Source: a virus. From it: DNA of 20,688 bases. The notes beneath the pieces were generated by a model. That model did not search any database and was not told the DNA's origin. It worked only from the letters and a program-made list of their open reading frames with translations. Where the stretch lies: the IMG/VR virus record IMGVR_UViG_3300008516_001652, positions 1-20,688 of that record. One strand, 5' to 3'. Positions 2-19,000 of this stretch are shown piece after piece (the first letter of the stretch is position 1; every line of letters starts with the position of its first letter). The position numbers and the translations under genes were made by a program.

Positions 2-652
2 CTGGCGACGGAGGCCGGACTCAATCACCTGAACGTCTTCCAGATCGCTATCAAGACATGGGACGACCTACTCGGAGCGTGCGCCGAACTCCTAAACGGG
101 AAGCACAGCTTCAAAACCATAATCGTTGATACTCTTGACAATGGCTACCGGATGTGCGCCGAGTACATCTGTGAAAAGCACGGCATCAAGCACGAAAGCG
201 ACCTGGGCTACGGCAAGGGTTTCGCACTCGTAAACACCGAATTCCACCGGGTGCTCAACAAGCTGTCCCTTCTGCCCTATGGTCTGTTTCTGGTCTCGCA
301 CTTGCAGGAGAAGGAGATCGAGGAACGCACCGGGAAATATATCCGTTACATGCCGAATCTTCCCGACAAAGCCCGTAAGACGGTGGCGGGGATGTGCGAC
401 ATGGTTCTCTACTTCGACAGCGAAGAGAGAACACAGGAGGAGGGCAACGTAACCCACCATCGCATTATCCGCACCAAGCCGACCCGCTATTACGAAGCCG
501 GTGATCGCACTGGCAAACTCCCCGACGTCATCGATCTCGATTTTGACAAGTTCCTCGCGGCTTACAAGATTGCCGTGTCGGATAAGGGCGGTGATTCAAA
601 CAGACAGAATCCCAAACCATCAACCACCCAAAACAGGAGTAATGCAAAATGA
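2..652 (+). CDS. Phage AAA_24 / Sak4-like RecA-fold ATPase (5' truncated)
   Basis: The reading frame is open from base 2 and runs off the left edge, so the N-terminus with the Walker A loop is missing. What remains has a Walker B-like strand (FKTIIVDTLDN, bases 110-142), a region around HRVLNKLSLLPYGLFLVSHL that fits a following RecA-core strand, and a basic, polar C-terminal tail. This is the pattern of phage nucleotide-binding proteins of the AAA_24 type, related to Sak4 single-strand annealing proteins, which act with a phage single-strand-binding protein in recombination. The next gene, a DUF669-type protein, is the usual partner and overlaps it by ATGA. An internal ATG at 152 would start after the Walker B strand and is not a credible start. 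Confidence is high for a P-loop ATPase and moderate for the Sak4-like role. Confidence 0.75.
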   Translation: MATEAGLNHLNVFQIAIKTWDDLLGACAELLNGKHSFKTIIVDTLDNGYRMCAEYICEKHGIKHESDLGYGKGFALVNTEFHRVLNKLSLLPYGLFLVSHLQEKEIEERTGKYIRYMPNLPDKARKTVAGMCDMVLYFDSEERTQEEGNVTHHRIIRTKPTRYYEAGDRTGKLPDVIDLDFDKFLAAYKIAVSDKGGDSNRQNPKPSTTQNRSNAK

Positions 653-1110
653 ACGAAGAAGGCACTGAAAGGATCGACCTGTCGCATCTGGACGAGGAGT
701 ATGCCGAAACCGAGGTTCCCGAGCAGGACTTCACTCCGATTCCGGATGGCAAGTTTCAGGTCATGGTTGAAAGGGCTGAGATTGTCACGGCACGGTCGAC
801 CGGCAACCCGATGCTCAAGTGGACGCTGCGCATCCTCGGTCCCACTTACAAAGATCGCCTGCTGTGGAAAAACAGCGTCTTGATCTCCGGTCTCATGCAG
901 TACGTGAAAAGGGACTTGCAAACCTGCGGCATCCATCTGCAAGGTCTGTCCGAGCTGGAAAGTCATCTTGAGGAGCTGCTGGACCTGAAACTGGAGATCA
1001 CCAAGAAGACCAAGGGCGAGAATGAGAACATCTACTTCAACAAGCTTATCGCCGGTGCGGCGGAAAGCAACTATGATAAGGCTTCTGAAGAGGCAAAGAC
1101 GCCCTTCTAA
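649..1110 (+). CDS. DUF669-type protein, candidate phage single-strand DNA-binding protein
   Basis: This 153-residue protein starts at the ATG of an ATGA overlap with the ATPase gene; a possible purine-rich ribosome site (ACAGGAG, 633-639) lies upstream. The core pattern (DGKFQVMVERAEIV, then GNPMLKWTLRILGPTYKDRLLW) matches the DUF669 family, which accompanies AAA_24/Sak4-like ATPases in phages and is thought to bind single-stranded DNA. The C-terminus is acidic and ends EEAKTPF, resembling the SSB tip that recruits partner proteins. The primase-helicase encoded downstream ends in a similar way. Family assignment is from remembered pattern, and the DNA-binding role is inference from family and context. 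Confidence 0.68.
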   Translation: MNEEGTERIDLSHLDEEYAETEVPEQDFTPIPDGKFQVMVERAEIVTARSTGNPMLKWTLRILGPTYKDRLLWKNSVLISGLMQYVKRDLQTCGIHLQGLSELESHLEELLDLKLEITKKTKGENENIYFNKLIAGAAESNYDKASEEAKTPF

Positions 1111-1569
1111 GTGGGAAAGCCTGTCATAATTATCGACACCCGCGAGCAGGAACCGTATGCTTTCGATCCGGACACAACTGAGATAAAACACAAGGCTCTC
1201 GCTGTCGGTGATTACAGTCTGGACGGCTTCGAAGATATGGTTTGCATCGAGCGGAAGAGCCTTCAGGATTATGTCCAGAGTGTCATTCGCAGGCGCGACC
1301 GCTTCATGAAGGAAGTCGTGAGGCTTTCCGACATACCGTACAGTTGCATCGTGGTCGAGAGCGACCTGGCGGATATCATGGGCAAGCATTACCGGAGTGG
1401 CGCCCATCCGAGCTCGGTGCTCGGAGCGACCTTATCCCTGATGATCGATCATGGTGTTCCGGTCTGCTTCTGCTCCGATCGTCAGTTAGCCAAGGTTTTC
1501 ACTGAAATGTATTTAAGACGGGTTTTTAGAAAATTGACAAGTGAAGCGACAGACGAAATCGAAAAATAA
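1111..1569 (+). CDS. ERCC4/XPF-fold structure-specific nuclease
   Basis: This 152-residue protein begins with GTG directly after the stop of the previous gene. It carries the ERCC4 nuclease signature: a first strand with IDTREQ (D9, E12), GDYS (D34), then the catalytic ERK at residues 47-49 followed by SLQDY. This is the GDx(n)ERKxxxD metal-dependent active site of XPF/Mus81-type enzymes, which cut flaps and branched DNA at forks or recombination joints. It is a stand-alone nuclease without an HhH tail or helicase fused to it, although an HhH-containing helicase is encoded next, overlapping it by 29 bases. The likely role is processing branched replication or recombination intermediates. Confidence in the fold is high; the substrate is inferred. 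Confidence 0.85.
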   Translation: MGKPVIIIDTREQEPYAFDPDTTEIKHKALAVGDYSLDGFEDMVCIERKSLQDYVQSVIRRRDRFMKEVVRLSDIPYSCIVVESDLADIMGKHYRSGAHPSSVLGATLSLMIDHGVPVCFCSDRQLAKVFTEMYLRRVFRKLTSEATDEIEK

Positions 1570-3760
1570 GGATGCTCTTGAGAAGCTTCGGGGGCATGTA
1601 GAGACTCTCTTTTATTCCAGTCCGCACTTCTCGGCTGGTCGCCTCGAAACTGATGACGGCGAAAGGATTTCCTTTGCCGGATCGTTGATAGTACAGGATG
1701 GTGACCGCGTGTTGCTGTATGGTGAGTGGACTAAACATCCTCAATACGGTCGTCAGTTTCAGGTCGATCGGTTTGAATATGACATGCCGCTCGATCCGGA
1801 TGGACTGGCATCATACCTCGCCAATCACCCCAACATAAGTGGCATCGGTCCGGTAAGAGCCAGAAAGATAGCCGATAAGTTCGGTTGCGAGTTTGAGGCC
1901 GTTTTATCGGAACGTCCTGAGGAAATAGCTGCTTGCGCAGGATTGCCGATCGAAAAGGTCAAGGAACTGCGAAAGGAATGGCTGCGAACTAAGGCTTTCA
2001 ACGGCGCTTTAACCTGGTTGTCATCTTTCGGGTTGACCTTCAAACAGGTCTCGACGCTTGTCGACAAATTCGGCAACGACGTGGTGGCTGTCCTGAAGGA
2101 GAATCCCTACCTGCTGATGAGGGAGATCAGGGGATACGGTTTCAAGAAGATCGATAAAATCGCTCGAAAAATGGGATCACCCAAGGACAACCCTCACCGT
2201 ATCCGCGCAGGCCTGCACCATTGTATTAACGAACAGGTCGACGCCGGTCACTGCTGGATCGATTACGAAGAGCTGATCAACAAAGCCAATGACCTGTTGG
2301 TGATGGATTGCCTGAATAGTCGTGAGCTGATTGAGAAGGAACTCGACTCGCTGATCGACCGGGAAGAGCTTGTCTGTCCGTCGCATGGCGGACGCTTCAT
2401 TGTCGCTCGCCCCGATTTGTATCGGATGGAGAATGATCTTCACGACTGGCTGAAAGAGGGTAATGGCGATAATCCTCATTTTGCAGGTGAGAAAGGTCTG
2501 GAAGATCTCGTTCACAAGACTGCACCAACCTTGAATAAATGTCAACGAGATGCTGTGCTTACCGCCCTGTCATCTCAAATAACTCTAATCAGCGGTGGCG
2601 CGGGAAGTGGTAAGACTTTCACAATCGGGGTTATTACCGAGCTTTATCGATCCCAAAAGAAAAAGGTTATTCTGGCGGCTCCAACCGGTAAAGCTGCCAA
2701 GCGGATGGAACAGGTGGTCGGCGGCGAAGCCTATACCATCCATCGCCTGTTAGCCTATGATGGAAAGAATTTCAACCTCGAAGAGCTGATCGATGCCGAT
2801 GTGGTGATTATCGACGAGGTTTCGATGGTGGATGTTCCGCTCGCCTGGCATCTGTTTAAGTCCATCGATTTAGACAATACGGCTGTCGTGCTTGTGGGCG
2901 ATCACAACCAGTTGCCTCCAGTCGGTCCGGGTAATATCCTCCGCGACCTCATCGACACACGTCTCATTCCCTGCGTGGTATTGGATGAGGTGGTTCGTCA
3001 AGCTGGAATACTAAAGGAGAACAGCACTGCAATCCTGCGGGGCGAGGTACGTAAGACGGCGCCTGAAAGCACTAACGGACGTCGTCCCTGGTATCTGGTC
3101 AATCAATTCACCGACCTGTTGGACGTGCAGCGTTTCGTTATCGATCTGTTCGAAACGACCCTTCATGAGCGGCTCGGATTCGATCTCCTGCGGGAAGTCC
3201 AGATGATCACTCCCACGAAGAAGGGTCCGCTGGGTGTGGATTTCATGAACATAATCCTGCAGCAGGTGCTGCAGAAGAAACTGTTCAGCGTCGATGTGCC
3301 GGCGCCGAAGCCGGGTCGTCGCCCCAAGTTTCTCTTGTATGACAAGGTCATCCAAACTCGGAATAATTATGAACTTGGTGTGATGAACGGTGCGATGGGA
3401 ATAGTTGAAGAGGTTTATCCAGGCAGCGGTCTGCGCATCCGATTCGAAGATAGAACGGTCGAAATCGAGCCCGGTTCGCCCGACTTGAGCGATATCTCTC
3501 TGGCTTATGCCCTGACGATCCACAAAGTGCAGGGATCTGAATTTCCCTGTGTGGTGGTGATCATTCACAAGGCGCACACCTTCATGCACAACCGCAACCT
3601 GTTCTACACCGCCGTGACGCGTTCCCGGCAGAGTGCGGTGATTATAGGTGATCGCTGGGGACTGCGAAACTGCGCCCAAAAGAAGCTGGTCGACAGGCGA
3701 CGCACATTTCTGTCATTGGTTAAGAAGAATCCCAATTCTGGTGAAGTGCTGCTGAAATGA
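1541..3760 (+). CDS. RecD2-like superfamily 1B DNA helicase
   Basis: This 739-residue protein starts at GTG 1541, the first start after an in-frame stop at 1535, and overlaps the nuclease gene by 29 bases. An N-terminal OB-like region is followed by a helix-hairpin-helix (SGIGPVRARKIADKFG, about residues 100-115) and a second HhH-like segment (IRGYGFKKIDKIARKMG). The helicase core has Walker A GGAGSGKT (352-359), Walker B VVIIDEVSMVD (D425, E426), motif III GDHNQLPPVGPG (453-464), a UvrD_C_2-type segment with AYALTIHKVQGSEFP near 650, and motif VI YTAVTRSRQ (R694). This architecture is that of RecD2, a 5'-3' helicase working without RecBC. Length matches the family. It lies in an operon with an ERCC4 nuclease and a primase, so it probably acts in phage replication or recombination. 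Its stop overlaps the next start (ATGA). Confidence 0.92.
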   Translation: MKRQTKSKNKDALEKLRGHVETLFYSSPHFSAGRLETDDGERISFAGSLIVQDGDRVLLYGEWTKHPQYGRQFQVDRFEYDMPLDPDGLASYLANHPNISGIGPVRARKIADKFGCEFEAVLSERPEEIAACAGLPIEKVKELRKEWLRTKAFNGALTWLSSFGLTFKQVSTLVDKFGNDVVAVLKENPYLLMREIRGYGFKKIDKIARKMGSPKDNPHRIRAGLHHCINEQVDAGHCWIDYEELINKANDLLVMDCLNSRELIEKELDSLIDREELVCPSHGGRFIVARPDLYRMENDLHDWLKEGNGDNPHFAGEKGLEDLVHKTAPTLNKCQRDAVLTALSSQITLISGGAGSGKTFTIGVITELYRSQKKKVILAAPTGKAAKRMEQVVGGEAYTIHRLLAYDGKNFNLEELIDADVVIIDEVSMVDVPLAWHLFKSIDLDNTAVVLVGDHNQLPPVGPGNILRDLIDTRLIPCVVLDEVVRQAGILKENSTAILRGEVRKTAPESTNGRRPWYLVNQFTDLLDVQRFVIDLFETTLHERLGFDLLREVQMITPTKKGPLGVDFMNIILQQVLQKKLFSVDVPAPKPGRRPKFLLYDKVIQTRNNYELGVMNGAMGIVEEVYPGSGLRIRFEDRTVEIEPGSPDLSDISLAYALTIHKVQGSEFPCVVVIIHKAHTFMHNRNLFYTAVTRSRQSAVIIGDRWGLRNCAQKKLVDRRRTFLSLVKKNPNSGEVLLK

Positions 3761-6309
3761 AGAATCCGCCCGGAACACCGCAACCACATGTCATAACGCA
3801 GAAAGATATCGAGCGCATTCGGGCGAACTTCCCCGCTGAAATGATCGCTCTTCCGCAGTGGGTTCCATACAGCCTCCGGTGGAGTGAGAAAACCGGCAAG
3901 TTCGACAAGATCCCGATGAATCCCAACACCGGATACAATGCCAAATCGAATAAACCGGAAACCTGGGGACGTTTTGAAATAGCCGTAAAACGAGCTCTCA
4001 ATCGTGGATTGGGCGGCGTCGGTTTCGTGTTCAGCGAGAACGATCCCTATGTCGGGATCGATCTGGATAAATGCGTGAACGAGGATGGCGAGATCGAGAC
4101 CTGGGCTTCTGAAATCATCGCCGAACTTAACAGTTATACGGAATTATCGCCATCCTGCAAGGGCTATCACATTATAGGTCGTGGGCAACTGCCACCGCGA
4201 GGGCGGCGCAAGGATCGTATCGAGATGTACGATTCCAACCGCTTCTTCACCGTCACCGGATTAGTAAATGGTTCCGGAGAGCTGCGAGATTTCCAGAAGG
4301 AGCTGAATAAGCTGCACTCCAGGACATTTAAGAAGTCTCGGGTCCGGAAGAAGAAATCGCCGCCCAACGGCAGAAATCCACCGGCTCTTTCGGATGACGA
4401 CATCATCACCAAAGCCCTTAATGCCAATAATAGCAGCAAATTCGAGGCATTATGGCGCGGTGATTGGGAGGGTGCGGGATATCCTTCCCAATCCGAGGCA
4501 GACCAGGCGCTCTGCAATCACCTGGCGTGGTGGACGAATTACGACTCGATGAGGTTGGATGCTCTTTTCAGACGATCCGGTTTGTTTCGACCTGAGAAAT
4601 GGGACGCGAAACACTATTCCGATGGGCGGACCTATGGACAGGGGACAATTGAGAAGGCTCTCGAGGGGCACAGCGTAGGTGATGGATACAATCCGACGAT
4701 CTCCAAGGGTTCGGTCTCGGTAAAGAGAAAAAAAAACTCCAAAATCCCGTTTATCCCCATTAATCGACAATTAAGCGATGTTCTATCAGATACTTGGGAA
4801 ATGGTTTTAGACGTCAATAAAGAGAATAATCAACCGTCGTTATTTCTTCGCTCGGGACAGCTGGTGAGGATTCGTGAGGACGAGGGCAATCCGCTGCATA
4901 TCGAGCACATGAATAAGGACGCGGTAAATGTACTCCTGTTCGAGAACGCCGACTGGGTGGTGGAAACCGATGAGTCAATCAGACCGGCAAAACCGCCCAA
5001 GGAGATCACTGCCGCGCTCATCTGTGACCCTCATCCCGGGTTGCCGCAACTCGAGAACGTAGTCAGTACGCCATTTATCGGTCGTGATGGTCGACTGGTA
5101 GCCACAAACGGATATCACGAGAAGAACCGCACCTGGTTGAAACTCAGCGATGATCTGAAGGGAATAGAAATCCCCGATGACCCGTCCATATCCCAGATCA
5201 GAGATGTGGTTACCCTTTTCACCGATGAGTTGCTGGTCGATTTCCCCTTCGTCAGCCAGGCTGATAGAGCCAATGCAATCGGCGCTTTCATACTCCCTTT
5301 CGTCCGGCAGATGATCGAAGGACCGACACCCCTCCATCTGATCGATGCGCCAACCCCGGGCAGTGGTAAAGGTCTTATAGCCACGCTGATTTCCATTCTC
5401 GCAACTGGCGAAGGAATGGTTATACAGACACTGCCATACCATGAAGAAGAGTTGCGAAAACGTATATCCTCCGAATTGCTCAAGGGTCGTCCGATCATCG
5501 GTTTCGACAACGCCGAGACCCGGCGGAAGTTGGATTCTGGTACTCTGGCGGCTGTCCTGACTGCCACTATCTGGAGTGATCGATTGTTAGGGCAAAACAA
5601 AGATCTGACAGTTCGCAATCGATCAATGTGGCTGCTCACCGGCAACAATCTTCAGGCGTCCAGCGAGATTGCCGACCGCGTGATCTGGATACGGATCGAT
5701 CCCAAGATGGAACGACCGCGTGAGCGCAAGGGATTCAAGCACGATCCGATTGAAGGATGGACGATTGAGAATAGACGACGTCTGGTTGAAGCTGCCTTGA
5801 CGATGGTCTCCGCCTGGCTACGTGCCGGGAAGCCATTCTCCGGTCGGAAGATCGGTTCTTTCGAAAACTGGACGAGGGTGATAGGTGGAATACTCCAAAT
5901 ATGCGGCATAGATGGATTTCTCCAAAACCGCGAGAAATTTTACGAACAGGCGGATGAGGAGAACGAGATCTGGCGGGAATTCGTCAATGTATGGTGGTCA
6001 TCCTTCGCCGGTGAACCGGTTACAGCCAAGTCATTATACAGCGTATGTGAGGACAACGATCTGATGATGCACGTTCGCGGTGATAAGTCCGAACGTTCGC
6101 AGCAGACTCGGCTGGGTAAAGCGTTGAAATCTGCGCGTGATCGTACTATCGGTAATTTCCGAATCCGCGCTGCATGGGCGCGAAATCCATCAGGGAATCT
6201 CGTAACCGGTTATCAATTAGTGCAGGTCGAACCACCCGCTGAAATATCGACGGACAACGAAGATGATTTATCGGGCACTGACTCTTTCGAAGAGGAGGCG
6301 CCATTCTGA
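3757..6309 (+). CDS. Primase-polymerase (AEP type) fused to P-loop helicase domain
   Basis: This 850-residue protein starts in an ATGA overlap with the helicase gene. The N-terminus has archaeo-eukaryotic primase motifs: PQWVPY (33-38), catalytic GIDLD (D102, D104), KGYHIIGRG with H138, and RIEMYDSNRFFTVTG (residues 154-168, with E156 and D159). This resembles the NrS-1-type phage primase-polymerase. A PriCT-like helical segment follows (about 240-310). The C-terminal half has Walker A DAPTPGSGKG (530-539), Walker B RPIIGFDNAE (D584) and a sensor-like WLLTGNN (625-631), as in phage replicative helicase domains. It probably opens the origin, unwinds and primes. The final residues, SFEEEAPF, form an SSB-like tip. 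The putative origin lies immediately downstream. The enzyme class is well supported; polymerase as opposed to primase activity is inference. Confidence 0.87.
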   Translation: MKNPPGTPQPHVITQKDIERIRANFPAEMIALPQWVPYSLRWSEKTGKFDKIPMNPNTGYNAKSNKPETWGRFEIAVKRALNRGLGGVGFVFSENDPYVGIDLDKCVNEDGEIETWASEIIAELNSYTELSPSCKGYHIIGRGQLPPRGRRKDRIEMYDSNRFFTVTGLVNGSGELRDFQKELNKLHSRTFKKSRVRKKKSPPNGRNPPALSDDDIITKALNANNSSKFEALWRGDWEGAGYPSQSEADQALCNHLAWWTNYDSMRLDALFRRSGLFRPEKWDAKHYSDGRTYGQGTIEKALEGHSVGDGYNPTISKGSVSVKRKKNSKIPFIPINRQLSDVLSDTWEMVLDVNKENNQPSLFLRSGQLVRIREDEGNPLHIEHMNKDAVNVLLFENADWVVETDESIRPAKPPKEITAALICDPHPGLPQLENVVSTPFIGRDGRLVATNGYHEKNRTWLKLSDDLKGIEIPDDPSISQIRDVVTLFTDELLVDFPFVSQADRANAIGAFILPFVRQMIEGPTPLHLIDAPTPGSGKGLIATLISILATGEGMVIQTLPYHEEELRKRISSELLKGRPIIGFDNAETRRKLDSGTLAAVLTATIWSDRLLGQNKDLTVRNRSMWLLTGNNLQASSEIADRVIWIRIDPKMERPRERKGFKHDPIEGWTIENRRRLVEAALTMVSAWLRAGKPFSGRKIGSFENWTRVIGGILQICGIDGFLQNREKFYEQADEENEIWREFVNVWWSSFAGEPVTAKSLYSVCEDNDLMMHVRGDKSERSQQTRLGKALKSARDRTIGNFRIRAAWARNPSGNLVTGYQLVQVEPPAEISTDNEDDLSGTDSFEEEAPF

Positions 6310-6376
6310 TGATTTTGAACACTTCATCCGAGATAATAAGGACGTTGAGTCTGAAAATAAGGACGTTGATAAGGAC

Positions 6377-6391
6377 GTGCATAAAATGCAC
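6377..6391. repeat. Short perfect hairpin GTGCAT-AAA-ATGCAC
   Basis: A 6-bp perfect inverted repeat with a 3-base loop overlaps the end of the third iteron copy and lies 16 bases before the extended -10 element. It could be a regulator half-site pair or a small structure in the origin. It is too short and lacks a T-run, so it is not a terminator. Confidence 0.45.
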
Positions 6392-6406
6392 TGTCTCGCA
6401 ACATGC

Positions 6407-6415
6407 TGATATAAT
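6407..6415 (+). promoter_or_regulatory. Extended -10 promoter (TGATATAAT) inside the repeat array
   Basis: A perfect TATAAT at 6410-6415 is preceded by TG one base upstream, the extended -10 form, which can work with a weak -35. The best -35 at 17-bp spacing is TGCACT (6387-6392), which is poor. Transcription would start near 6422 and run through three abutting iteron copies (6433-6462) towards the gene at 6709. A protein bound to these copies could block it, and the transcript could serve as origin-activating RNA. The motif is seen; activity is inferred. Confidence 0.45.
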
Positions 6416-6479
6416 AGGATTTGAAAAACGTGATAAGGACGTTAAGGACATATAAGGACGTTTTATAGTGCTTCGCAGG

Positions 6480-6544
6480 CGCGCGTGTAGGCGGGCGCGC
6501 GCTAATATATACATATATAGCACGCATGCGCGGGCGCACGCGCG
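6480..6544. repeat. Quasi-palindromic origin core: GC tracts around an AT-rich centre
   Basis: CGCGCGTG (6480-6487) and CACGCGCG (6537-6544) are inverted about position 6512. The 21-base AT-rich stretch at 6501-6521 sits on the same centre and begins GCTA and ends TAGC. The flanks are nearly pure alternating purine-pyrimidine GC/GT sequence, a type able to adopt Z-DNA under supercoiling. The AT centre could be the unwinding element. The inner six iterons share this axis of symmetry. Confidence 0.6.
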
Positions 6545-6618
6545 TGTATGGCGGTTACGCAAAACGTCCTTAACGTCCTTATACGTCCTTAACCTCAAGG
6601 TATAGACTGGAGATAATC

Positions 6619-6646
6619 ATAAGGACGTGAGCCTCGACGTCCTTAT
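6619..6646. repeat. Perfect inverted pair of iterons upstream of the 6709 gene
   Basis: ATAAGGACGT (6619-6628) and ACGTCCTTAT (6637-6646) form a perfect 10-bp inverted repeat with an 8-base spacer, about 60 bases before the start codon at 6709. This is the only head-to-head pair in the array. Its geometry suits a dimeric regulator, so it may be the operator for the downstream gene rather than an origin iteron. Confidence 0.55.
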
Positions 6647-6708
6647 GAAATCCCCATAACGTCCTTATTGAAATGAATTCAGAAGGGTATTTTCAAGAGA
6701 TCGAATAA

Positions 6709-7449
6709 ATGTCAATCGTTCAGCAAACACTTTTTAGACAGGAGCTCGTTCAATCCATCCCATACGTGTCGACCGACCTGCGGATGACGGAATTAACTGC
6801 GCCGGAAGCCGTTCGCCAGGATATGATGATCGAGGGTGTATGGTACCGGCGACTGGACGCACAATACTTCGTGTGGATTGAACATCAAGCAGAACTGGCT
6901 CGGAAGATCGCTGAGCAGGGCAAAATTGCGAAACCAGCTCTCGATGCATTGTTGTCACGCTTCCAGGACGTGAGGGAATGGGTGGACGAGAATCTCGACA
7001 GTGACAAGCTTCAAGCCGCAAGAAAGCTCTTCGATCCGGCGACATACATTCCACCCCCTGCGGCTCAGCAGGTGTCTGGGATGAAGGGAAATCCATCCGC
7101 TTCATCGTCGAACACCACACCGCATCTTAATCCCACAGATGGCGATTGGAAATTCACCAGACCTGTTCCTCCTGAAGTGGTAGCTCAGGTGGATGTGATC
7201 CGTGATAAAGCCCTGGCACTCGGCTGGTCGGAAGCGCGGCTATACCAGAACCGTGGTAACATCAAATACCCGTGTGGTCAGGATTGGGGTCTGGTCTGCA
7301 CCCTCGATAATGGCGAGACCATCGGTGAAGTGACTCGCCAGTATATCGAGATATTCACGCAGAGCGGTGTTCGACAGAGGTTTATAAACTTCGATGTCGA
7401 CCAGCCGTGGATTAAGAGGGTGAAACAGTCAATGGATAATGGCAAGTGA
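6709..7449 (+). CDS. Phage protein of unknown function, downstream of origin candidate
   Basis: This 246-residue protein starts at ATG 6709 with a weak AAGAGA ribosome site (6695-6700). I do not recognise it. The N-terminal half (1-120) is helical-looking and charged. A low-complexity Ser/Pro/Asn linker (about 118-145) leads to a more conserved-looking C-terminal half with ALALGWSEARLYQNRG, KYPCGQDWGLVC and GETIGEVTRQYIEIF. There are no transmembrane segments and no obvious catalytic motif. Being the first gene after the repeat array and its promoter, it could be an origin-binding or regulatory protein, but nothing in the sequence proves this. Its end overlaps a 33-codon ORF by 11 bases. Confidence 0.7.
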   Translation: MSIVQQTLFRQELVQSIPYVSTDLRMTELTAPEAVRQDMMIEGVWYRRLDAQYFVWIEHQAELARKIAEQGKIAKPALDALLSRFQDVREWVDENLDSDKLQAARKLFDPATYIPPPAAQQVSGMKGNPSASSSNTTPHLNPTDGDWKFTRPVPPEVVAQVDVIRDKALALGWSEARLYQNRGNIKYPCGQDWGLVCTLDNGETIGEVTRQYIEIFTQSGVRQRFINFDVDQPWIKRVKQSMDNGK

Positions 7450-7540
7450 AAAGAAGGCAAAAACGTCTCCCCGCGCCGTTGCCGGCAAGCGGATACAACC
7501 CGAGGGCAAATGGGATTATAAATGCCTCTTGAACGAATGA
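7439..7540 (+). CDS. Coupled mini-ORF, 33 residues, unknown
   Basis: An ATG at 7439 opens a 33-codon frame inside the end of the preceding gene. It closes at TGA 7538-7540, forming an ATGA overlap with an ATG at 7537 that can start the next gene. The peptide is basic at its N-terminus (ASEKKAKTSPRAVAGKR) and ends in KWDYKCLLNE. Overlaps at both ends match the coupling style of this genome, which argues for a real mini-gene, but the ribosome site is poor and the product is too short to judge. Confidence 0.35.
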   Translation: MASEKKAKTSPRAVAGKRIQPEGKWDYKCLLNE

Positions 7541-8082
7541 AAAAACAATGTACGGCAACCAGTAAACTGTCTGGTGAGAGATGTAAAAATCCAGCTGTCA
7601 AAGGATATGATGTTTGTCGGATGCATGGTGCCAGAGGTGGCGCTCCGAAGAAGAATCTCAATGCCTTAGTGCATGGCTGCTTCGTGGATCGCTTTCTGAA
7701 GGAAGGCGAGGTGGAGATGTTCAATCGCTTCATGGATGGTTTAAAGAACGATATCCCGGACATGAATGAGTCCTCCGATTATGCTATCGCAGTTACGGCA
7801 GGGATGGTATTCATTCGGTTGCAGCGTGCAATCGAAGGGGACGCGCAGCCCAACAGTCTGGATTTCCTTTCCAAGACGTTGATCCGGCACCTGGAAGCAT
7901 TGAAGATCACCAGACATGCCAGGAAGGGAACGGATATTAACCTGCCCAGTCCGGCACAATGGGCGTTGGAATTGATTGAGAAGACAAGACAACGTCAGAA
8001 GGAACTCGATGAAGGGAAAGAGGTACGAAGTCTGCCGGGTGAGGGCTTTGAGATCGAAGATGCCGAGGTCGTGGACGTATGA
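7522..8082 (+). CDS. CCCH zinc-finger-like protein, candidate small terminase subunit
   Basis: The frame gives 186 residues from ATG 7522, or 181 from ATG 7537, which sits in an ATGA overlap with the mini-ORF; ATG 7522 has a GGGA at 7512-7515. Counting from ATG 7537, it begins with C5, C16, C27 and H30 in evenly spaced C-x10-C-x10-C-x2-H, then HGARGGAPKKNLNALVHG. Short zinc-binding N-termini followed by a GAPK.N.NAL.HG segment are common in phage proteins near the terminase, including putative small terminases. The rest is helical, with a charged C-terminus. Position before the large terminase supports a packaging role, although a leftward cassette now separates them. The zinc motif is clear; the terminase role is inference. 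Confidence 0.6.
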   Translation: MPLERMKKQCTATSKLSGERCKNPAVKGYDVCRMHGARGGAPKKNLNALVHGCFVDRFLKEGEVEMFNRFMDGLKNDIPDMNESSDYAIAVTAGMVFIRLQRAIEGDAQPNSLDFLSKTLIRHLEALKITRHARKGTDINLPSPAQWALELIEKTRQRQKELDEGKEVRSLPGEGFEIEDAEVVDV

Positions 8083-8709: not shown

Positions 8710-9594
8710 CTACAGAGTGTCGAGGGCTTCTTCAAGGGACTCGTCGAGCAGGTGTGCATAAACCTGAGTCGTAGTCACAGACGCATGTCCGAGCGCTTGC
8801 TGAACCGCGAGAAGGTTGGACGTGCGGGCGTAAACCGATGTGGCGAACGAGTGCCGCAATGTATGAGGCGTAACTCGCTTGTCAATCCCCGCTTTAGCGA
8901 TCCATTGGTCGAGGCGGCGTTGAACCTGGCGTGTGGTAATCCTGCTCAACAGTTGGCTGAGGAAGAGCGCCTGGTTTTCAACGAATATCTTCCTGCGTTC
9001 ATTCAGATAGCGATGCAGGACGGCTCGCACCTTGGAGTTAAGAAACCTGTGAACGATCTGCCCTCCCTTAGCTCGGATCGTGATCCGCTTCTCAAGCAGG
9101 TTGACATCGCCGATATCGAGGTTGACGAGCTCGGAGAGCCGGATACCAGTGTGAAGAAAGAGGGTGACCATGACCAGGTCCCTATATGCCTGCCATCCTT
9201 TATGTGTTCGGATGGTCTTCAGCAGCATCCGTTTCTCATCCTCGGTCAGATAGATCGGCGGCTTGCGGTTGTTGCGCTTGATGCGAATGCCGGCGGAGGG
9301 ATTGTGGGCGATCATCCCGGTATCCGTCAGCCATCTGAAGAATCCTTTGATGCTGGCTCTTGTGCGGTCGATGGATGTGGGCTGCTTGGGACGACCGTCC
9401 GACTGCATGATAACCGGTTCGCTGAGGAGGAAACGGTCGAGGTCGTTGTGCGTGATGCGTTCGACCTGAATCTCACTTCCCAAGTTGCTGACCAGCAGCC
9501 TCAGGTCGCGTTGATGCGCCCCGATGGTGTGAGGCGAGCGTCCATTGGCGAGCTGGTGTTCCAAAAATTGTGTCACCGCATGTTGGATGGTCAT
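8710..9594 (-). CDS. Tyrosine recombinase, XerC/D-like integrase
   Basis: This 294-residue protein starts at ATG 9594 with a GGAGGAG ribosome site and an ATGA overlap with the upstream gene. Residues 1-90 form a SAM-like core-binding domain, and the catalytic domain follows. Active-site residues are present: R152 (HTGIRLSEL), K176 (AKGGQ), H244 and R247 (HTLRHSF), H270 (LGHAS) and the nucleophile Y279 (TTQVYAHL). There is no extra N-terminal arm-binding domain as in lambda integrase, so it resembles XerC/XerD, integrating or resolving at short dif-like sites. It is the last gene of a leftward cassette inserted among rightward packaging genes. It is probably the phage integrase; dimer resolution of a plasmid-like prophage is the alternative. 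Confidence 0.93.
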   Translation of the reverse strand: MTIQHAVTQFLEHQLANGRSPHTIGAHQRDLRLLVSNLGSEIQVERITHNDLDRFLLSEPVIMQSDGRPKQPTSIDRTRASIKGFFRWLTDTGMIAHNPSAGIRIKRNNRKPPIYLTEDEKRMLLKTIRTHKGWQAYRDLVMVTLFLHTGIRLSELVNLDIGDVNLLEKRITIRAKGGQIVHRFLNSKVRAVLHRYLNERRKIFVENQALFLSQLLSRITTRQVQRRLDQWIAKAGIDKRVTPHTLRHSFATSVYARTSNLLAVQQALGHASVTTTQVYAHLLDESLEEALDTL

Positions 9595-16084: not shown

Positions 16085-19000
16085 TGATCACTAATCCGAC
16101 TACAAACCTCTATACCTGGGCATTGGCGATCCAGGCAGCGGCGAAGCAGCCGGACTACGACTGCATTCTCGTGCCGTCAGAGATCGCTGAAATGGCAGCC
16201 AAGAAGCATGGCGAGGCGGTCAAGATCGGGACGGCTGTTTCGAAAGGGGAGTTCGAGAAGTTGACTATGAAACAGTTGCAGAAGCTCGCCCAAGCCAACA
16301 GCATCTCCATTGCCCGCACCAAGAAGGATTTTATCAAGCTGCTGAAGCCATTAGAACCGGACGTCGATCTGGAATCTCTGAAGGGAACTCAGCTTAAGGC
16401 GCTGATTAAGAAGCACAAGATCGGGGCGTTGCGCTCGAAGAAAGAGCTGATCGCTCTGCTGAAACAACAAGCGGAGAAGGAAGCCAAAGAGGAGCTCACC
16501 CAGCAGTTGGTGCAGCAGCAGATCGAAGCGGTCAGGGAGAAAATCGCATCGGGACTTTCCGAACTGCCTGCCTTGAAACCACAGAACTTCCAGGAGGCGC
16601 TGACCAAGCTGGATGAGATGTCACAGGCGTTATCCAAAGCAAAGAAGCTGCTTCCCGAAGTCGAATGGACGGCACTTAAGGGGCAGGTTGAATTCGCCGG
16701 GGAGAGCTTCGTTCAATCGGTTAAGGTCCTGAGCGCCGGGGAATTGAAGCAGATCGCCAAGTCTGCCAAGCTGCACCACTACCAGTGGGCGTCGAAGGAC
16801 GAGCTGATCGTCCTGATGACCTCAACTGACAAAGGCAAGCTCGAAGCAGCCAAGGTGGGGATCAAAGCCAAGTGGGCGAAATGGGCTGAAAAGCACGGCG
16901 GCAAGAAGGTCAAGGTCAAGCCTAAACAACCACCTTCGAAAGTCACCACACCGACGCCGAAACCTGTTGCACCGAAGGAACTAACGTCAGCGGACGACAC
17001 TTGGCAGAGGCTCGTCGAATCGGAACCGTTCAAGTTCCAAGGGCGCGCGGACATCGAGGGAGCGCACACCAAGTATTTCTTTACTGATCGGAAGGGAGCA
17101 AAATGGCTGTTCAAGCCGACTGAGGAGTTTCGAGCCTATGGCGACGAGACGGCTTATCGGATCGGCAGGCTGATCGATCCCGACGCCATCGAGGTGCGGT
17201 ATATCGAACTCGATGTTCCGGAACGAGGCAAATTAAAGGGTTCGATCCAGAAATGGCGCACCGACTTGAAGAAGGAATTTGATTTCCGGGATGCGGTTGT
17301 CGAAAAGCTCAACTCCGCTGAGCTTGAGCAACTCCAGCGCGAGCACGTGATTGACTGGTTGATCTCCAATCACGATGCGCACGGAAAGCAATTCCTACGG
17401 TTGAAAAAAGGACACGTTCGGGGAATAGACAAATCCCAATTATATAAGTATTTGGGCGATGACAAGCTATCTCTCACTTATCATCCCAATCATGGCTGGG
17501 GCGAGAAGGAGCCGTTCTACAACGCGGTGATGCGTGCCTGGCGGGACGGAACGATCAACCTCGACCTGCAGGCGACATATAGATACATCCGCCGCGTCGA
17601 AATGATCACTGACGATGCCTACGTTGAGCTACTGAAACCCTATGCTGAACGCCGGTTTCGACGGCAGCCGCTGAAGCTGAAACAGTTCTATGAGACCGCT
17701 CTGGTTCGCAAGAATAACATCTGGAGTGATTTCGAGGAGTATTACACCGGGCTTCTTCGGCAGCGCACCGGCGACCGCACGGCGGTGTTCAGTTTCGATG
17801 TGGACATGAAGGTGTTGCCGACTGATAAAGCTGCCGGAAAGTGGAAGCATATTCCCGATGAGGCTGAAGCCTTGATCGATGATGCCCGTGAGTCTGGCTG
17901 GCAGGGAAAGTCACTCCCTGTGGACATCGACGACATCGAGGATCAGAATGTGCTGCTTTATACCGAGCAGGTCAAAGGGAAGATACGCACGGTGATGCGG
18001 ATGAAGATCCGACCTGAAGCCGAACGCAAGCTGCTGGCGGCATTATCCACGGGCGCAGATGACACCATCGGGCAGGTGGCGGGGAGCGCTCTGGCGGACG
18101 ATCTATTTTACGATGACATTCTGACAGCAATCAAGTCGATCAATCACCACATCAAACAGGGGGACTTCAGTTTCAATCGACAGAAGATAGATCAAGCCTT
18201 GAAACACCGCGCTGCATTGAAGCGCCTTACCAGGAGCGGTGATAAAGACCTGCGAGCTATGGCACGTGATTATCTGAAGACGCTGGACGAAATCGACGTC
18301 TCGGCAACGGCTGGCGGTAAGAAGAAGATAAGCGCATTTGACCGATTCCTGAAAAAGGAGCCTGCGGTTAAGCCCTCCGGCGACAAGATCTCTGCGGTCA
18401 AGCGGACAATCCTTTATGGGGATCAGAAGCAGGTTCAACGAGGTCAGATCAGGATCGTGAAAGAGGATATCGAATTCGGCAAATATCACCACAACTTCAC
18501 ATCCCGCGGACTTGAGTATCGCATCGACCTCCCTGATGGCGTTGAGGGGATTTATCGTCCGTGTATCAAAGAGAACTACTACGCACATCAGGGGCAACTC
18601 GAGCTGCGGATTGCAGCGGAGTGCACCCCTGAGACCGCAGAACGATTGTTATCGGGATTGGAACGACTGGGAATCGAAACATCCTTTGCATCGCCGGATG
18701 AGGCCGAGATTTTGTATTTGTTGAAGTCGGCATACATCCTGAAGGAGGATACCACGCCTGCTTGGAAGAAGATGTTGCGGGGTCTGGACACTGGCAAAGC
18801 CTCCAAGGCTGAGCGAGTGAAGGCTCTTCGGCAATATTGGTCGGATCGGTTAGGAATTCAGGATGTCACCAAGGTTCCAGGGTATGATCCAGAAGGGCGG
18901 TATTCGATAATGTCGTCCGCCTGGAAGAAGAAAAGGGAAGCCGGTTATCGTCATCAGCTCCGCTTCGATCTGACGGACGAGCAGATCAAGCGCGAGCTGA

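Follow-up and report, generated by a model that had tools for sequence, protein, structure and literature searches.

A two-sided array of twelve short elements, lying directly after a primase-helicase gene, functions with a probability of close to nine in ten as the replication origin of the phage represented by IMG/VR record IMGVR_UViG_3300008516_001652, of which a stretch of 20,688 nucleotides (hereafter the window) was analysed. Origin function had been proposed in an earlier note on this DNA, and it finds strong support in the conservation of the array, in plasmids in which the array persists although only the initiator gene is kept, and in the footprint of a homologous initiator. The array, its conservation, its grammar, its location beside the initiator gene, and the predicted domain fold of the initiator form the basis of this analysis; binding, membership in a minimal replicon, and bidirectionality have been shown by others for a homologue. 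Three features are new: a mirror grammar common to many arrays, centres prone to Z-DNA, and arrays contained within a gene. The mirror grammar is broadly conserved and apparently undescribed in the open-licence literature, which is not proof of novelty. Dozens of phages and plasmids have the mirror layout beside related replication genes, and the repeat sequence differs in most of them.

The array in the window

All twelve copies of ATAAGGACGTT were found where the earlier note had placed them, between 6336 and 6668 with six on each side (Table 1), and the gene upstream, the primase-helicase gene named in that note, ends 26 bp before the first element. Seven copies are on the plus strand and five on the minus strand, in mirrored arrangement. 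The copies at 6369 and 6619 end in GTG, the copy at 6442 (+) is degenerate (TTAAGGACATA), and one of the twelve copies carries three mismatches to the 11-mer. The array is far beyond chance: with one mismatch allowed, the most frequent 8-mer family is found 12 times in the 450 bp that follow the initiator gene, whereas 1,000 dinucleotide shuffles average 4.2 copies and never exceed 7 (0/1,000 reach 12). Among 389 other 450-bp stretches of the window, the highest count is also 7. The exact 11-mer does not occur in the rest of the record, and a reversed-pattern control returned 0 matches.

Table 1. Coordinates of the array, its modules, and the neighbouring genes in the window
Feature	Position	Strand	Remarks
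ATAAGGACGTT copies	6336, 6357, 6369, 6433, 6442, 6452, 6619	+	
ATAAGGACGTT copies	6563, 6572, 6582, 6636, 6658	-	
Left outer module	6336..6379	+	three inward-facing elements (6336, 6357, 6369)
Left inner triplet	6433..6462	+	6433, 6442 (degenerate), 6452; pitch 9 and 10 bp, conserved in relatives
Centre	6463..6563		alternating purine-pyrimidine tracts (~6479-6501, ~6520-6550) flank an AT stretch (~6502-6518)
Right inner triplet	6563..6592	-	6563, 6572, 6582; pitch 9 and 10 bp
Right reversed element	6619..6629	+	'>' of the outer '><<' module
Right outer element pair	6636..6668	-	6636, 6658; spacing 22
Sak4-like recombinase ATPase gene	2..652	+	start missing at the record boundary; in a replication/recombination operon
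DUF669-type single-strand DNA-binding protein gene	649..1110	+	
RecD2-like helicase gene	1541..3760	+	
Initiator gene	3757..6309	+	PrimPol and helix-bundle (~23-305), D5-type SF3 helicase (~330-745), winged helix (~757-824), acidic tail
246-aa gene	6709..7449	+	no known family; syntenic in L001, L007, L012

The ACGT-core spacings, counted outward, are 10, 9, 64, 12, and 21 on the left and 9, 10, 42, 12, and 22 on the right, exactly as first reported, and the two axes (inner 6512-6512.5, outer 6501.5-6502) and the single same-orientation pair (6369/6619) were likewise reproduced. The symmetry recurs in relatives, but in the window alone 4/6 pairs fall on one axis (p = 0.13); the shifted axis and the left copy that is not reversed keep this score from significance. 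It is the relatives that carry the case for symmetry.

A search of Rfam gave no match. The array contains no exact DnaA box (TTATNCACA) and a single match with one mismatch at 6376, with the proviso that this box may not be that of the host. Direct-repeat iteron plasmid origins with DnaA boxes have a single iteron orientation, unlike the window array, which has both. Searching with the window-element pattern also returned two stray copies in unrelated genomes (L002 and L003), which were set aside. Four direct 22-bp repeats on another contig (L004:312-400, consensus AACGTCCTTATATGAGCAGGG) were judged unrelated; they have a 10-mer in common with the window element and are probably an unrelated plasmid-type iteron.

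The initiator gene and its neighbours

The N-terminus of the initiator matches Pfam PF22763 (E 5e-23; NrS-1-like PrimPol and helix-bundle) and PHROG primase families, and a PDB profile search matched the protein to NrS-1 polymerase (2e-38). A Pfam search of the C-terminal half found no family. An AlphaFold2 model from 30 sequences (pLDDT 85.8) yielded Foldseek matches to pox D5/E5, AsfvPrimPol, the NrS-1 CTR, SaPI PriRep1, and SaPI5 Rep, and based on this fold match the initiator is predicted to be a D5/SF3-type hexameric helicase. Residues 757-824 of the predicted model adopt a winged helix (H-H-H-E-E).

The acidic tail of the initiator ends in EEEAPF (window 6286-6306), and acidic tails with a terminal PF were observed for the window, L001, L007, L037, L059, and L061 (EEEAPF, DEEVPF, NDEAPF, EEELPF, and CDEHPF). 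The tip of bacterial SSB is DDDIPF, which the initiator tails much resemble, and the tail may recruit host proteins that bind SSB. The DUF669 SSB-like protein (649-1110) also ends in PF (SEEAKTPF).

An ERCC4-type nuclease gene is also among the genes ahead of the initiator. Downstream, the 246-aa protein is probably not the binder of the array because it is missing from plasmids that still have the array; a search of viral contigs with this protein returned no matches. The region 7522-8082 encodes a small protein with a C..C..HG motif, assigned to phrog_3678 (unknown function) and strongly conserved in L001 and L007, and is a possible small-terminase-like gene. A tyrosine integrase is located at 8710-9594 (-), between the replication and packaging genes, and a similar ORF occupies the same place in L001.

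Conservation of the array and its grammar

Wherever a close relative retains the PrimPol, it retains the array as well; absence of the array in close relatives, one of the outcomes that the earlier note had named as refuting, was not observed. L001, with an initiator 78% identical, has the same twelve-element layout built from the element TTTAGGACGTT. In L007 (59%), which comes from an Electryoneota MAG, the inner triplets, the reversed flanking copies, and the outer copies are all present with the element GTTACAACC, and the element of L037 (54%) is nearly that of L007. The more distant L012 has a different N-terminal primase and a conserved helicase half, and the layout is kept with CCGAACCT. 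A contig from a Calditrichaeota MAG (L006) is identical to the window over the initiator and array, and a host from this group or its vicinity is therefore probable, though the binning of phage contigs is uncertain.

Beyond these close relatives, a search with the helicase half identified 53 viral loci in addition to known phages and plasmids, and 75 loci were examined. Arrays were accepted at z >= 6, above all 100 shuffles, and no more than ~700 bp from where the helicase match ends, and 34 of the 75 loci have such an array near the 3' end of the gene, each with its own element. Some loci below this bar nevertheless have a fitting layout: pWTY27, L072, and, with minimal 3+3 arrangements, Azospirillum AZO_p2 and Methylobacterium pMNOD06. 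No array was detected near the gene in homologues from the phiCbK group, RpAliso, the Psychrobacter and Cereibacter plasmids, KL1, and BPP-1; not every enzyme of this class therefore comes with the design. A search with the phage A2 sequence added no new loci.

Many arrays follow one grammar (read from left to right, with > pointing toward the centre): >>>< [>>(>) | (<)<<] ><<<. Elements of the inner modules mostly have a pitch of 9-10 bp, and the centre measures 56-107 bp (mean 84 across 31 arrays). Between the reversed copy and the inner module there are usually 45-50 bp; this gap differs by no more than 3 bp between the left and right sides in 15/23 arrays, and several of the other eight differ by 11-13 bp, approximately one helical turn or one extra element. 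The right reversed copy is also present in L001, L007, L012, L017, L024, L037, and others, and the left outer copy nearest the centre is reversed in most relatives. It is in this one point that the window and L001 depart from the family, with the left copy at 6369 unreversed. The shift of one helical turn between the inner and outer axes also occurs in L001, whereas manual calculation from the element positions puts the two axes of L007, L017, L037, L072, and L079 no more than about 1 bp apart. Individual loci have further repeats or a displaced array: two overlapping repeat families follow the gene in L062, a second array (TTACGGCG) lies ~600 bp downstream in L072, and the array of L042 starts ~480 bp downstream.

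In 13 phages (L038-L041, L043, L044, L046-L049, L051, L052, and L058) the array is inside the initiator ORF, with all copies within the ORF except for one copy in L058. In the loci read in detail, the reading frame crosses the array for about 140 codons before a tail such as VDLADF or IDLANLP. Translation of the array gives the initiator of these phages a long extension of low complexity.

Arrays inside the initiator ORF argue for an element tied to the initiator gene and against a transcriptional operator, at which a repressor or the initiator would bind to control the downstream genes. The window array does lie upstream of the gene at 6709-7449, and multiple sites near the start of a gene could be operators, but the downstream genes change between relatives as the array remains with the initiator, and no promoter-like sites above chance were found in 6250-6760. 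An operator is considered very unlikely.

Probable drift of the element

Across the family, consensus elements are often like ACGTCCNNA, including ACGTCCTTA, ACGTCCCCA, ACATCCCGC, GGTCCCGCA, and GTTCCCAC, which suggests that in much of the family the elements drift gradually and are not replaced wholesale. Similarity among elements follows that of the winged helix (Mantel r = 0.59) and, almost as closely, that of the helicase core (0.53); the correlation thus does not pin the binder to the winged helix, and the covariation of element and winged helix is confounded with phylogeny.

Comparison with known systems

The earlier note considered the window array to be an origin of a new type, a claim that is not supported, as SaPI Rep, SCCmec Cch2, pWTY27, and phage A2 already have iteron origins downstream of a primase-helicase. 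Plasmid pWTY27 offers the strongest evidence on function. Its RepA shares 31% identity with the window initiator across the helicase half, winged helix included (E 5e-68). In footprinting, RepA binds the inverted repeat of the plasmid, the minimal replicon consists of repAB and a ~300-bp repeat (iteron) region, and replication is bidirectional (PMC3583192). Because this homologue binds such an array within a minimal bidirectional replicon, origin function for the window array is very likely. As in the window, the array of pWTY27 is positioned right after the initiator gene and has the mirrored grammar, the reversed flanking copies, and the outer pairs. Unlike the window, which has three elements in each inner module, pWTY27 has inner doublets at 9 bp, its element is GTGGGAAC, and the primase is supplied by a separate gene, repB. 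Its authors described IR1-IR3 and a possible stem-loop, but no shared grammar.

The SaPI Rep proteins (SaPIbov1 and SaPI5) and SCCmec Cch2 are self-loading primase-helicases of the same fold with iterons directly downstream, though their helicase sequence is remote from that of the window and Cch2 has three direct iterons only. Their C-terminal domain binds the downstream iterons, and SaPI Rep apparently forms two hexamers (PMC7581432).

Phage NrS-1 has 14 copies of the element GGTTACACTTT in a related layout right after its PrimPol (0/300 shuffles reach 14). The N-terminal PrimPol and helix-bundle are homologous to those of the window and the helicase fold matches, whereas the helicase half is not alignable by sequence and the NrS-1 centre is AT-rich. 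The 8-mer recognized by the NrS-1 PrimPol, TTTGGTTA (PMC8718748), occurs once in AB746912 at 17198-17205 (L094) on the minus strand, at the junction of two elements inside the array; of the two copies published for NrS-1, only this one was found in AB746912. There was no match to TTTGGTTA in the window.

Like the window, Lactobacillus phage A2 has Sak4, helicase, SSB, and primase genes, and the rep_origin annotated in GenBank comes next, in the position of the window array, with a small two-sided array of its own. A2 differs in having 8 elements, an AT-rich centre, and a Firmicutes host. P4 has a separate crr, for which no counterpart was noted in the window. The P4 alpha protein combines a primase, an SF3-type helicase, and a winged helix and binds origin repeats (PMC4234260), but its primase is of the Toprim type, as opposed to the AEP-type PrimPol of the window.

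These systems also bear on two further readings of the array. A packaging (pac) site for a small terminase would be consistent with the possible small-terminase-like gene at 7522-8082 (phrog_3678), ~850 bp downstream and of unknown function, and with the terminase genes that also follow the array region in NrS-1. The same layout in Streptomyces plasmids, the requirement for the array in pWTY27 replication, and an array presence that tracks the primase-helicase and not the terminase make a pac site very unlikely. A partition centromere, or a locus for incompatibility or copy-number control rather than a start site, is suggested by the small numbers of repeated sites that are also typical of centromeres and by outer modules that might pair origins. 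The direct binding of the pWTY27 array by RepA speaks against it, as does the lack of any ParA/ParB family among the window proteins scanned, and this reading is considered very unlikely. The outer modules might nonetheless have a control role in addition to initiation.

The centre between the inner triplets

The earlier note was wrong to describe the centre as AT-rich: 6463-6563 is 58% GC compared to 52% for the record. Most of it is GC-rich DNA in which purines and pyrimidines alternate, such as GCGCGCGCTAATATATACATATATAGCACGCATGCGCG, and the AT stretch in the middle comprises only ~18 nt. Alternation in the centre (0.78) reaches or exceeds the 99.9th percentile for the record. When the longest alternating run of each of 34 centres is ranked against its own locus, the median percentile is 0.99, and individual runs have lengths of 52 nt (L037 and L054), 44 nt (L012), and 43 nt (L079), and a CGCG(T/C)G-like core is common to the centres above dinucleotide shuffles. 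The tract is missing from the centres of L086 and L088, and several loci (L059, L062, L021, and L032) have AT-rich centres instead. Enrichment of GTG, a possible priming motif, is weak in the centres (mean percentile 0.63). A role for the alternating tracts as Z-DNA is conjecture.

It has been proposed for pRN1 and phage BIP-1 that the essential element is a stem-loop, in which case the repeats of the window would be only its arms. The downstream origin of pRN1 is a structurally conserved 100-nt stem-loop (PMC4234260), and the inner triplets of the window are indeed inverted repeats. However, the arms would be ~100 bp apart, the 101-nt centre folds no better than shuffles (z = 0.23), and the outer modules and the pitch are kept as individual sites of varying orientation, as expected for protein sites. 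A stem-loop as the essential element is very improbable here. BPP-1, nearly identical to BIP-1, showed no array, and so its origin may be of another type.

A model for initiation and its implications

Under the origin reading, the array would be bound by the PrimPol-helicase encoded immediately upstream, presumably through its C-terminal winged helix. The inner triplets, facing each other across ~100 bp, could each nucleate one D5/SF3 hexamer, and one hexamer per triplet would therefore result in a head-to-head pair, a putative double hexamer. The outer modules may recruit more molecules or regulate loading. Two rings would strain and open the centre, where the PrimPol domain could prime on the exposed strands and send forks both ways. 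The suggestion of a bidirectional or paired initiator is upheld to the extent that a paired complex fits a D5/SF3 hexamer, but GC skew lends it no support, with no sign change at the array. Comparable arrangements are found for SV40 T-antigen and papillomavirus E1, which have an SF3 helicase, inverted short sites, and proposed head-to-head hexamers. Their origin-binding domain is N-terminal, in contrast to the presumed C-terminal domain here, and the binding domains have no sequence relation. The analogy to SV40 T-antigen and E1 origins has been drawn previously (PMC7581432).

A broader proposal is that these arrays constitute a widespread and unrecognised class of origins with a fixed mirror grammar and a drifting element, sometimes wholly in-gene, in which a Z-prone alternating tract, and not AT-richness, is the conserved feature of the centre, and in which the centre absorbs torsion or flips to the Z-form as two hexamers load from both sides. 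This proposal is tentative, and we consider it somewhat doubtful as it stands. Should the alternating tracts prove functional, they would represent a way of opening an origin that does not depend on AT-rich DNA.

The published recognition site of the NrS-1 primase can now be placed within an array of this kind. Loci that would otherwise be read as a hypothetical protein plus repeats become instances of one origin design, recognizable from its layout even where sequence similarity is lost. The layout also allows precise predictions to be made about the assembly on DNA of D5/SF3 primase-helicases, whose fold group is common to phages, plasmids, and large DNA viruses.
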